Shown piece by piece: positions 14,313 to 26,105 of a DNA stretch of 64,000 nt; the stretch's first letter is position 1, and each line of letters begins with the position of its first letter. The stretch is from NCBI RefSeq assembly GCF_000565175.1, contig NZ_CP006681.1, positions 496,001 to 560,000 of the forward strand, given 5' to 3'. The DNA comes from Spiroplasma culicicola AES-1. Its GTDB lineage: Bacteria; Bacillota_I; Bacilli_A; Mycoplasmatales; Mycoplasmataceae. The position numbers were made by a program, and so were the translations under genes. The notes beneath the pieces are model-generated. The model was not told the origin of the DNA and did no database searches. It saw only the letters and a list, made by a program, of their open reading frames with translations.

Positions 14313-15878
14313 ATGGATATTACAGAAAGAATTAAAAAACTTATTGAAGCCATTTCATACCAAGTTTATGAAAAAGAAACTATTTTTAGATTAGCAATGT
14401 TGGCATTACTAGGAGAAGAGTCAATTTTCTTATTAGGAAAACCAGGAATTGCCAAGTCATTGATTTCACGTAGGATGAAATTTGCCATTAAAAACGGAAC
14501 AAATTTTGAATATTTAATGTCAAAATTCTCAACACCAGAAGAAATTTATGGCCCAATTGACTTAAGACTTTTAAAAGATGGTAAATATGTGCGTGTGGTT
14601 GATGGTTATCTTCCAGCTTCAAATATTGGTTTTTTAGATGAAATTTGAAAAGCTGGACCAAGTATTCAAAATACATTACTAACAATTATTAACGAAAAAA
14701 TCTTTAGAAATGGTGGAAAAGATATTAAAGTTCCATTAAAACTTTTAATATCTGCTTCCAATGAATTACCTGCAGAAGGTGAAGGATTAGAAGCCTTATT
14801 TGACCGTTTTATTATTAGATACATTGCAGAAGGTTTAAAAGAAAATGATAATTTTGAACAATTGTTAGATGGAGAATCATCACTTGATGTTGAAGTAGAT
14901 CCACGTCTTCAAATTTCAATTGAAGAACTTGAAGCATGAAAAAAACAAGTTCGTCAAGTAAGAATTAGTCGTAAATCACTTGATTTTATTCATTATTTTA
15001 GAAAAAAAATGAATGCAGAAACTCATGGTGAAGCTTATATTTCTGACCGTAGATGAAAGAAAATTTCAGGTTTAATGAAAACAAGTGCTTTTTATAATGG
15101 ACGTGCAGAAACAGATATTCCCGATTTATTTGTAATTCCTTATTGTATTTGAGATAACGAAGAACAAGATGAACAGTATACACAAATTTTTTATTCTGCC
15201 TTTTTAGAACAATTTGGATTAGAATGAAGAAATGAAAAAAGAAATCTATTAAATCAACTTGATGCTATGAATGGCCAAATTGGACAAGTTGAAGCTCAAT
15301 TTTTAAGATTAACTCCGTATGATTCACCATTTAAAGGAAATTTAAAAGGAACATATTATTTAATTAACTTCACTGATGGGGGAGACGAATACAGAGTTTG
15401 CTTTATATCAGCAGCTGATTGAAACAAAATCTCAAATCTTCCAAGTGAATCATTTGAAATTGATTTACATTTTGGACCAAATTTAAATAAGTATGTTGGA
15501 AGTCAAAAAATGCAAGTTAAAGCTTACAAATCAGATCAAATCTTATTTGTAGCTGAAAACAAACGTTATCAAATTCAAAATGATAATCCTACAGAATTTA
15601 ATAACCAAATGGTTGGATTAAGTCAACAAGTGGCAGAAATTGAAAAACAAGTTAAAGAAGTTTCTGCAAAAATGTTTAAAGAATATAAAAAATATACAAA
15701 TATGAATTGTGTTTTCTTTGAAGATATTTATGATGAAAAAATTGCAGAAGCATTTGATACAGTATCTAAAAAGAAAAAAGCAAAAAATGATGCATTAGAT
15801 GCAGATGCAGAAAGTTTTAATCAACAAGAACAAGAACGTAATGCTTTAGCTGAAGCAGATCTTGAATTTGGAATTTAA
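14313..15878 (+). CDS. MoxR-family AAA ATPase (RavA-like)
   Basis: This encodes 521 residues. The Walker A motif is LLGKPGIAKSLISRR, typical of RavA/MoxR proteins. Walker B follows as NIGFLDEIWK and sensor 1 as LLISASNELP; an arginine-finger region reads ALFDRFIIR. The C-terminal half has a RavA-like LARA/discontinuous region and an acidic coiled tail (ALAEADLEFGI). It probably acts as a chaperone-like ATPase together with the VWA protein encoded 31 bp downstream, remodelling a still unknown client. Several TGA codons are Trp. It starts an operon of three genes. Confidence 0.88.
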
Positions 15879-15909
15879 TAACTAAATATTTTAAAAGAAG
15901 GTGATTATT

Positions 15910-17580
15910 ATGCAATTTGATATGGACAAACCGGTCAATGAAATTAAAAAAGAAATTGAACGTTTAAGACAAAAAGATTTACATAATAGTGCCTTTTTAG
16001 CATTTAAAAAGGATCACGAATATGCAGCAGAACAGTTGGATGACAAAATCAACAATTTTTATAGTGCTTCAAGTATGTCAACAATTTCTCAAATTAAATT
16101 GCCAGAACCCATTAGAAAAGAAATCATTTACTATAACTATGTTTCAGATAACTTTGATGAAGTTGAATTTGCCAAAAAATTAAACTTTATTCAAGAAAAA
16201 CTTGTTGAATTTGATTCACCATTTTCAACTTACATTGATACAATGCGTTGAAAAATTGAAAATGGTTATTTTGAATTAAAGGGAAGAGATTGATTAACAG
16301 AGTTTTTTAGAACTTGAACCTTTATGTTAACTAAAAGAATCCTTGATTTTCGTTTAAAAACAGTTGAAGATTTGCGATATAACTATTTAGTTGAAATTTA
16401 TGCCATTATTAAAAACTATGGTAAATATGCCAAAATTTATAAAACAATGTATGATGTTTTTGGCAAGATTGCCAATGTTGAAGATGAATTAAAAAACCAA
16501 AATATTGAATCAATTTCAAGATTTGCAGAATTTTTATATAAAGATCCCAGTATTTTAAGAATTGCTGAACTTTTAGGACGACTAAATGGTGAAGATGATA
16601 TTATGGAAGTCAATATTACAGAGCAAATTACAACTTATCCTACTCAAGTAAAGTTACCTTACAACCCTGAAGAATTAGTAGGGGTTACCATGTCAAAAGA
16701 CATCGAAAGATTATTACCAATGGAATTGGCAAATTTATTTGATCCTGAATTAGAAATTGTGTTTTATAAAAAGTTTGTTGAATCACAATTACAAGCATTC
16801 TTATTTGAATCAAATGAAACTATTATTGAACATGAAATTGAAGAAGTTGAATATGAAGCACCAATTCCTTTAGAACAAGGTAAATTTATTATTTGTATTG
16901 ATACTTCAAGTTCAATGGAGGGCGCAGGAGAATATATTGCTAAATCTTTGGCAATCGCTGTTGCCAAAGTGGCGTTAAAAGAAAATCGAGATTTAGTCTT
17001 TGTAAACTTTGCCAATCAACATGTTGATGAATTTGAAGTCAATGGAAGAACTGTAAATATTCAAAAAATGTTAGAGTTTTTAGCAAAATCTTTCTACGGA
17101 AGAACAAATTCAAAACCAGCTTTTCAAAAAGTAATTGATAAAATGAATTCAGAAAATTATCGTCGTGCAGATTTATTAATGATTTCTGACTTTATGATGG
17201 ACTCATTGCCAAATTCAACTAGAGTAAAGATTGCAGATTTAAAAGATAACTACAATCGTTTCCATTCATTGGTTGTAGGAACAATGCCCAATGTTGAAAC
17301 TCAGGATGTCTTTGATAATGTTATGTATTATGATCCAAATGATCCTTATTCAACTCAACAAATTGTTAAATCTTTAAATGAAACATTACGTGATTTACGT
17401 GAATTAAAAGATGAAGAAGCAGCTTATCGAGATGAGCAAATTTCTGAATTAAATAAGATTCGTGATAAAAAACGTATGCGTGATGTTCACAAAGATAGTC
17501 CTAAATCTAAAAAATTGGAAAAAGCAAAACAAAAAGCCAAAGATCTTGAAAAGAAACGTCAGAATTTATATGGAAATTAA
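15910..17580 (+). CDS. VWA-domain protein (ViaA-like partner of RavA)
   Basis: This encodes 556 residues. The C-terminal von Willebrand A domain starts near residue 325: FIICIDTSSSMEG contains the metal-site DxSxS at about residue 331. FYGRTNSKPAFQKVID and LLMISDFMMDS supply the later Thr and Asp positions. The N-terminal 320 residues are helical. The last 60 residues are basic and coiled (KKLEKAKQKAKDLEKKRQ). ATG at 15910 follows AAGAAGGTG; an upstream in-frame GTG at 15901 is part of that site. The pairing with the RavA-like gene is the known RavA-ViaA arrangement. Confidence 0.87.
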
Positions 17581-22232: not shown

Positions 22233-22304
22233 TATAATAAAATTAATCTTTATATATGCAAAAGAACACATATTATAGAGGTAGAAAACGGAAAATATGA
22301 GGTG
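22233..22304 (+). promoter_or_regulatory. Promoter and leader of the nucleosidase-fold gene
   Basis: TATAAT is at 22233-22238. The leader contains a 17-codon basic open frame (22256-22309; YYRGRKRKIWGD at its end) whose TAG lies one base before the next ATG. The strong site GAGGTG (22299-22304) for the main gene sits inside it. A coupling role is conjecture, because the small frame has no ribosome-binding site of its own. Confidence 0.4.
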
Positions 22305-22310
22305 ACTAGA

Positions 22311-23849
22311 ATGATCGGAATAATTTCGACAGCGTACTTTACAGTTAAGGACCGTGCAGGTGTAAGAACTGTAAGAAAATATTGATGAAGAAACATGGTT
22401 ATTCAACACGTTAAGTTCAGAGGAAAATTCTTTGTAATCGCAACAATCGGTTATGGTAAAGCAAATGCTGCTATGGCAATTACCTACTTAATGGAAGAAT
22501 ATCCAGGATTAGAAACAGTATTAAACGTTGACTTAGCTTTATCAACAAATGACAAATTTGATACAACTGATACAGTAATGTCAACAAAATTTATCTACAG
22601 AGATGCAGATTTAACAGTATTTAAAGACATTAAATATGGACAAATCGTTCACGAACCAGAAGCATTCGCTTTTAACACTGAGTTTGTAAACCAAGTTAAA
22701 AACTTCAAATTAGGAGTTTCTGATGGGATTGTTGGAACAGCAGATATGTTGATCTACAACTCAAAACAATTTAAAGAAATGGTTGACAAATATGGTCAAA
22801 CTATCGATGTAATTGATACAGAAGCTGGAGCATTAGCTCAAGTTGCTAAAAAATCAAGTGTTAACTTTGTTGCAATGAAAATTATGTACAACAATGCATT
22901 ATCACCATGAGATAACGATCCATTACACAAATTTAAAATCTATGAAACAACTAATACATTAAAATACTTAGTTGCAAGATTATTTAACTTATTATCATCA
23001 AGATATGTTTTAGACTTTACAAAAAACACAAATGATGAATTAGATGTTATTAATGAATTATTTGAACTAGAACACGATGCTTGAGTAAAAAGATTCAAAA
23101 AAGATGTTGTTTCTTTAATCTCAGGTATGGGACCATCATTGATGTTGGTTGACAAAAAACAAATGAAACCTGAAGCAGTTGATATTGTTGAGGTTATGAA
23201 AACTAAAATTGAAGACGAAGGTCCTTCAAAAGTTATCTTAGGAGAAGATGAATGAAAAAATGCTCCTAAAAAATGATTACGTAAATTAATGTTCCTACAA
23301 AACATTCACGTAAATGATGATGAATTATTATGAAATAAATCAGCAAAATACGACATTAAAACTGGAAAAATTCATTCAATTGAAGATGTTGCAAAAAACA
23401 TTGCAAAAGCAATCGCTGATAGATCACAAGACAAATCATCATATACATATGATGGAACTACAGTAAACAATAAACACTTAATGGTAACATGTGATGCAGC
23501 AATTTCATTCTACATTACACATAACCAAACTCACGAATTCGTGGAAAGTAGAAAACACGGTTCAAAATTGGTAGCAAACGAATTTATTAAATATCTAAAT
23601 GAACAATTAGCAGAAGTTGAATCACCATTTGAAAAAATTGTAGTATTTGTTAAAGTGCCTGCAATGGGTGCTGTTAAGATTCCAGTATTTATGGAAACTA
23701 AATCAAAAGCAAATCAACCAATTGTATTCAATGGATACTCAGCAAAAGCACAAAAAGACTTTACAGTTGTAGATATTACAAGAAATGACTACGACCCATT
23801 AAAAGTTGGTTCATTCAAAGTTACAATTCGTTTAAAATCAGCAGATTAA
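22311..23849 (+). CDS. Enlarged nucleoside phosphorylase/nucleosidase-fold protein
   Basis: This encodes 512 residues. The N-terminal 200 resemble 5'-methylthioadenosine/S-adenosylhomocysteine nucleosidases: MIGIIST start, FFVIATIGYGKANAAMA, and DVIDTEAGALAQVAKK, which fits the ME-AxA segment holding the ribose-binding Glu. The N-terminal catalytic Glu of MTA nucleosidases and the Asp of the SD motif are not in their usual places (MKIMYNN follows instead). A 300-residue C-terminal region follows, including LMVTCDAAISFYITHNQ and ending in beta-rich sequence. Normal nucleosidases are about 230 residues. Codons ending in C (AAC, TTC, ATC) are more frequent than in neighbours, suggesting high expression. 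Confidence 0.75.
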
Positions 23850-23854
23850 TATAT

Positions 23855-23883
23855 AAAAATCACCACTATTGGTGATTTTTTTT
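23855..23883 (+). terminator. Rho-independent terminator
   Basis: A 10-bp stem AAAAATCACC/GGTGATTTTT with a 6-nt loop is followed by more T residues. Confidence 0.9.
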
Positions 23884-24341: not shown

Positions 24342-24416
24342 AATATTTTGTAAAAAATATTTTTTTTATATTACAATACTTTTAGAAAACTAATTAAGAT
24401 AGGGAAAAAATTGCTA

Positions 24417-26105
24417 ATGGACACAAAAGAAAATATCACTATTGAGGATTTAGAGATTCATCAAGAAGAGTTTAGATCTAAAGAAGAAGAAAAAGAAATC
24501 AAAAAAGCTGCTAAAGAACTTCTAAAACATGAAGGCCAAATTGATTTATCTCATATTGAAAATAAAGTTATTTCAAAAAGAGAACAAATCTTATTAGTAC
24601 AATCATATTTTAGAACTAAATTTTTGCGAGATCTAACAGCAATTATGTTAGCTGCCTTAATTAATACAATTGCATTTGACTACTTTATTTCTGCAACGGG
24701 AAGAACAGGATTATTTCCAGCAGGAATTGGTGCTCTTGCAAGATTCTTTTCAGTATTAACTTTCCCTGATTCAATTGCAAGTCAAGGATCATTTTACTTT
24801 ATTTACTACTTTGCAATTAATGCACCTTTATTTATATTTGGTTATTTAAAATTGGGTAAAAAATTTACCTTTACAACAATTTTGTATATCTTATTGCAAA
24901 TTGCATTTGACCAAACTTTGCAATTGATGCCTTTTATTAATCCTGCTTCATTTCATTTAATTGTCAATTATCAATTATTACAATCAATTTCAAACTCATG
25001 AAATACAGGAATTTGATTATTTATCTTTGGTTCACTTGGGGGAATTTTAGTTGGTTGATCTTATTCATTTGTTTACAAAGTTGGTTCTTCAACAGGGGGA
25101 TTGGATTTTTTAACAGTATATATTTCTAAAAAAAGTTCAAAACCAATTGGAACATTAAATCGAAATGTTAATTTTGTAATTTTAGCAGTTGTTATTACAT
25201 TAAATACTGCAGTTTTACCAGTTGAATATATTAATCCTGATATTAAAATTAATGCTTTTACATCCTTAAGTGATAGTCAAGCTTCAGGTTTATTGAATGA
25301 CATGATAACTCATGCAATAAAACATGGTGCAATTGATGTTGAAAATAATGTTATTGATCCAGTATTTGCTTATAATATGGGATTAGGTGATTTAATTGGA
25401 AACAGTAAAAATATTGATTTAAAAGAAGCAATCTTTGAACAATTTGGTGGTGAAAATAATTTAGCAGTTAATGGCTCTAATCGTGCTTACTATGAATATT
25501 TAGTTGAATACGTGTCTAAAACTGGTTTTGGTAAAGATGTCACTTTACCAACAAATGTTTTAATAAGATTAAAATTTATGTTTATTTTTGGACCATCTTT
25601 ATTTGCTTCAATTGCCTTAGTTCTATGTTCAGGATTAATTACAAATGCATTATATCCAAAATATAAAGTTAGAACATACTTGATTACAACAAATAATCCA
25701 AAAGAAATTAATAAATTACTATTAAATAAAGGTTTTCAAAATGATATTGTTTCATGAGATGGAACAAATAGAATTAATCACAACTATTTGCACAGATCAA
25801 TTATAATGGTGGCAATGTCTGTAATGGATTGAGATGAACTTGAAAGAGATGTCTTTATGGTTGATCCCCAAGTTAAAATTAATATTTTAAAAACAAAAGC
25901 AGTTAAAGGGATTTTTAACTATGAGATTAAAAAGAATGATGATCGTGATATTATTCATCGAAAAGTGACTACAGATGATAGTGAACTTGAAAAAATCCGC
26001 CAAATTGCAATTGTTAAATTCAATAAAGAAAATGAAAGATTAAATAAAAAACAACAACGAAAACAATTCAAAAAGCCAACAAAAACTAAAAATAATGATA
26101 AATAA
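24417..26105 (+). CDS. YitT-family membrane protein (DUF161/DUF2179)
   Basis: This encodes 562 residues. A charged 70-residue N-terminus is followed by membrane segments from LRDLTAIMLAALINTIAFDY on. The conserved GSLGGILVGWSYSFVYKVGSSTGGLDFL matches the YitT signature region with its GG-D. The last membrane segment (SLFASIALVLCSGLITNALYP) leads to a cytoplasmic DUF2179-like domain (RTYLITTNNPKEINKLLLNK, IIMVAMSVMDWDELERDV). A segment of about 100 residues sits between the membrane halves. Function of the family is not established. ATG at 24417 or TTG at 24411 may start it; AGGG spacing suits TTG. TGA codons are Trp. Confidence 0.87.

Follow-up and report, generated by a model that had tools for sequence, protein, structure and literature searches.

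The gene at positions 22311-23849 on the forward strand of the window, that is, the whole stretch of 64,000 nucleotides from Spiroplasma culicicola AES-1 analysed here, almost certainly encodes Fib, a cytoskeletal protein that forms filaments in Spiroplasma and would build a ribbon together with MreB, hold the cell in its helix and carry an N-terminal half derived from a nucleosidase. The NCBIfam model NF033570 (the FIB_Spiroplas equivalog, "cytoskeletal motor fibril protein Fib") covers residues 1-510 of the 512 at 1071 bits (cut-off 200), and there is no evidence against membership of the family. The protein is already known, having been named, curated and studied, and it is an ordinary family member. 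The first-pass annotation did not recognise it, and since the protein already had a name and a literature, its novelty is far below what was suggested there.

Identity and gene structure

The Fib of a Spiroplasma metagenome-assembled genome (record JALAGN010000034.1) is 80% identical to the window Fib, while those of S. phoeniceum P40, a second S. phoeniceum and S. poulsonii MSRO_BK are each 69% identical and the annotated Fib of S. citri 67.5% identical. The window Fib shares with the Fibs described by NF033570 the length of 512 residues, the two-part architecture, the full-length profile match and, with most other members, an identity of 67-95%; nothing of note sets it apart. In S. citri, the gene that follows fib encodes a YitT-family protein. 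That fib (locus L104, NZ_CP047429.1, 45323-46861) stands on a record of 122,910 bases that is labelled a plasmid and has ordinary, chromosomal-looking neighbours, so that the record may be a mislabelled piece of the chromosome.

The features of the window gene are as follows.

22300..22305 (+), Shine-Dalgarno-like, purine-rich AGGTGA just 5' of the fib ATG (direct reading of the sequence)
22311..23849 (+), fib, fibril protein Fib, 512 aa (genetic code 4; TGA read as W25, W26, W200, W258, W315, W322 and W341)
22311..22994 (+), N-terminal domain, residues 1-228, MTA/SAH-nucleosidase-like, with PNP_UDP_1 at residues 35-205 (profile and sequence matches; boundary after PMC8432965)
22341..22343 (+), codon of T11, which replaces MtnN E12 (acid lost; alignment)
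22821..22823 (+), codon of E171, equivalent to MtnN E174 (acid kept; alignment)
22890..22892 (+), codon of N194, which replaces MtnN D197 (acid lost; alignment)
22995..23846 (+), Fib-specific C-terminal domain, residues 229-512 (no match among sequences of solved structures, no Pfam family above cut-off)
23855..23880 (+), intrinsic terminator-like stem-loop with a T-rich tail, just 3' of the fib stop (one found in the scan, 0.4 expected in shuffles)

The length of 512 residues given in the first-pass annotation is borne out under genetic code 4, where seven TGA codons are read as tryptophan; under table 11 the same seven would break the open reading frame. Internal TGA codons, which are to be expected in Spiroplasma and its relatives, also occur in many of the window's other frames. 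The ribosome-binding site noted earlier is found as the AGGTGA just upstream of the start codon, and promoter-like sites in the scan that gave the terminator are in no excess (seven, against a mean of 10.6 in shuffled sequence). Downstream of fib lies a gene at 24411-26105 that we take, by its look, to be YitT-like. Elsewhere in the window, at 14313-17580, two adjoining genes have products of 521 and 559 aa; judged by eye, they are presumably ATPase-like and von Willebrand A-like, respectively, and resemble MoxR/VWA pairs.

Codon choice, which had been taken earlier as a sign of abundance, points the same way here. Among the NNY codons for Phe, Tyr, His, Asn, Asp and Ile, the share ending in C is 68/159 = 0.43 in fib, compared with 0.06-0.20 in 18 other, hand-chosen coding sequences of the window, which fits high expression of fib. 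Fib is also described as abundant in the proteome in a review (PMC13310574).

The nucleosidase-like half and its changed active site

According to PMC8432965, Fib has 512 residues, of which 1-228 resemble MTA/SAH nucleosidase and the rest is specific to Fib, and a nucleosidase origin is stated there. The MTA/SAH-nucleosidase-like N-terminal part seen in the first-pass annotation is plainly present in the window protein: PF01048 matches residues 35-205 with 63.8 bits against a threshold of 25.1 (E 2e-17), and MTA/SAH nucleosidases of solved structure match with E down to 7e-12 (phmmer). This clear similarity might be read as a bifunctional or repurposed MTA/SAH nucleosidase with an extra domain and no cytoskeletal role. 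However, Fib is by far the best family match and extends over the full length, which already contradicts such a reading; the curated nucleosidase (MTAN) models give partial matches that stay under their thresholds (63.3 bits where 169 are required, 56.2 where 73.8 are), and catalytic acids are lost. We therefore consider a repurposed nucleosidase extremely improbable. The 169-bit cut-off is no fair test in this family, since the model finds some match in all 60 family genomes and no gene in any of them reaches it.

The residues E12, E174 and D197 of E. coli MtnN have catalytic roles. In a MAFFT alignment with this protein (b0159, NP_414701.1), E12 is replaced by T11 and D197 by N194 in the window Fib, while E174 is kept as E171, so the earlier statement that two of the usual catalytic acids are missing was exact. 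The phmmer alignments with nucleosidases of solved structure give the same result for E174, as well as for D197 in those long enough to include it. Neither outcome that would have counted against the earlier reading, a predicted fold unrelated to MtnN or a complete active site relocated elsewhere, came up, though for the fold the models obtained were too low in confidence to use. In the MAFFT alignment, other MtnN pocket residues are mostly replaced too: M173, S76, F151, S196 and F207 have all changed along with E12 and D197. The MTAN rows of the same alignment have E, E and D in 24 of 24 cases (one row being E. coli and one a duplicate of another). The comparison with MtnN can thus be put as follows: the two proteins share the phosphorylase-superfamily sequence over about residues 35-205 of Fib as well as E174, whereas Fib is without E12 and D197, has most other pocket residues replaced and has about 280 residues more.

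The pattern recurs across the family. Among 40 full-length Fibs, one per genome, the places of E12, E174 and D197 read T-E-N in 37; the other three have S-E-N (G005), E-E-S (G050) and E-E-N (G051). The interrupted fib genes of two further genomes (G036 and G048) were left out of this count; their pieces have T, E and N wherever they reach those places. E171 is kept in all 40.

The invariant glutamate raises the question of whether Fib retains enzymatic activity or senses nucleosides, its kept E171 and changed pocket binding MTA, SAH or another nucleoside so that binding alters the twist of the filament. K190 of the window Fib, at the place of MtnN R193, is also found in most MTANs of the group, two deep-branching Fibs additionally have E at the E12 place, and shape changes were suggested in PMC8432965 to stem possibly from conformational changes of the enzyme. 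Against this stand the replaced E12, D197 and pocket residues listed above and the words of a 2026 review (PMC13310574), which speaks of no obvious enzymatic activity. Moreover, the window genome holds a separate MTAN-like gene (C1:792345-793010, minus strand) with all three acids present. On balance, we consider an enzymatic or sensing Fib unlikely. Enzyme loss, with E174 kept throughout, is what the sequences point to, and the N-terminal half is most likely an assembly module rather than an enzyme.

The Fib-specific half and sequence conservation

The C-terminal region had been called unknown earlier. As to fold, this stands: residues 229-512 find no homologue among sequences of solved structures at E up to 10, and Pfam gives the window protein no family above cut-off in this part, with sub-cut-off matches only. 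As a domain, however, it is a described, Fib-specific region that the NCBIfam model covers. Across 19 Fib C-terminal members, weak Pfam matches occur in one to nine of the 19, the most frequent being Tri-helical (9/19, best E 0.01) and the one with the lowest E DUF4221 (2/19, best E 0.0025). These were treated as chance matches. An internal duplication was likewise considered and set aside: the profiles of the two halves match with a probability of 0.1%, a value obtained with a shallow N-terminal alignment and weak as counter-evidence. AlphaFold models were too low in confidence for use, both for the full protein (five-sequence alignment, mean pLDDT 35.4) and for residues 1-228 (three-sequence alignment, mean pLDDT 36.2).

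Invariant columns number 75 of 228 in the N-terminal part and 26 of 284 in the C-terminal part of the 40 full-length Fibs; among the 38 that are left once the two deep members are set aside, they rise to 125/228 and 95/284. The half derived from the nucleosidase is thus better conserved than the more variable Fib-specific half. This suggests strong constraint on the N-terminal half, though probably not as a catalyst.

Role of Fib in the cell

Filaments, ribbon and helical shape have been shown in published work on relatives, and the window Fib, judged by its sequence identity to theirs, should work in the same way. Fib subunits would assemble into filaments of rings and cylinders; in relatives, rings about 11 nm wide and 6 nm long are joined by cylinders at intervals of 8.7 nm, and the filaments lie in a membrane-associated ribbon (PMC9582952). 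Side by side with one another and with MreB filaments, those of Fib would form a ribbon that follows the cell's inner line and keeps the cell helical. Fib alone turned syn3B cells helical (PMC9710875), and PMC9663586 is also among the published support for this explanation. Kinking and swimming, on the other hand, are thought to be driven by the MreB actins and not by Fib: MreB5 with MreB1 or MreB4 is reported to be enough for swimming, which was rebuilt without Fib, so that Fib is dispensable for it (PMC13310574). The same review compares the passive mechanical role proposed for Fib with that of intermediate filaments, a likeness in role alone with no sequence relation claimed. The N-terminal half is by descent an MTA/SAH nucleosidase that has lost two of its three catalytic acids.

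The window genome has seven full-length MreB-like genes in a profile search (278-427 bits), not counting a weak match of 74 bits in a frame of 606 residues, and this number falls inside the range of 5-8 given for Spiroplasma mreB genes (PMC7609405). The first-pass annotation had proposed a structural or sensing role. The structural part was right, the protein being Fib, the main filament protein of the Spiroplasma ribbon, while sensing finds no support here.

A strict need of Fib for helicity is nevertheless doubtful. The fib gene is interrupted in two genomes of the family, being split into two overlapping pieces in different frames in G036 (L025) and cut by one in-frame TAA in G048 (L030), and S. 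sabaudiense and S. helicoides are, according to a review (PMC7609405), still helical despite a probable stop codon in fib.

Distribution, deep-branching members and a second Fib-like gene

Profile searches place Fib above cut-off in 42 of the 60 family genomes, in 42 of 298 genomes from the order and in 19 of 395 from the class, all the positive genomes of the order and class draws, which overlap the 60-genome family draw, belonging to that one family. Sub-cut-off matches elsewhere concern the nucleosidase part only, among the matches listed, and the E. coli and B. subtilis controls give the same kind of match below cut-off. Fib is restricted to one bacterial family in the sampled genomes, and no relatives of it were found in viral contigs.

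Two members branch deeply. The Fibs of G050 (L026) and G051 (L027) are full-length, with 484 and 369 bits, and their C-terminal parts are 36% and 24% identical to that of the window Fib, respectively. Both have E at the E12 place and no D at the D197 place; D197 would thus have been lost before E12, if the alignment is right.

In addition, two genomes carry a second, highly diverged Fib-like gene, each facing a gene for a hydrophobic protein.

L024:2785-4188 (-), G037, second Fib-like gene, 468 residues (66 bits with the Fib profile, cut-off 200)
L024:1926-2795 (+), G037, hydrophobic-protein gene converging on it (neighbourhood)
L023:3922-5175 (-), G042, second Fib-like gene, 418 residues up to a stop that falls within the similarity (Fib profile 84 bits, cut-off 200)
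L023:2847-3758 (+), G042, hydrophobic-protein gene converging on it, cut by a stop (neighbourhood)

The two Fib-like proteins are 38% identical to each other and align as a pair to Fib residues 4-435, over both halves (hhalign E 9.5e-19). In the tree they fall outside the 40 Fibs on long branches, with unsure placement. The gene occurs in two of the 60 family genomes, by a search model built from these same two sequences. The hydrophobic proteins are 43-54% identical in two pieces and have no match in Pfam; the loci have a GC content of 15-17% and few C-ending codons. A search of phages gave no match to the second Fib-like protein, and no mention of the gene was found in the open-licence literature consulted. 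It is conceivable, if rather doubtful, that the gene forms or once formed a second kind of filament, and that, together with the deep Fibs that keep E12 and are without D197, it offers snapshots of the passage from an enzyme to a cytoskeletal protein. That the gene is a relic is no less likely than that it builds a working second filament.

With the window gene, a known cytoskeletal protein gains one further sequence, and the new points, which are modest, lie in other genomes. There, the deep Fibs and the second Fib-like gene are material with which the way from a nucleosidase to a filament protein may be traced step by step, and their more divergent sequences may also serve for modelling the C-terminal domain.
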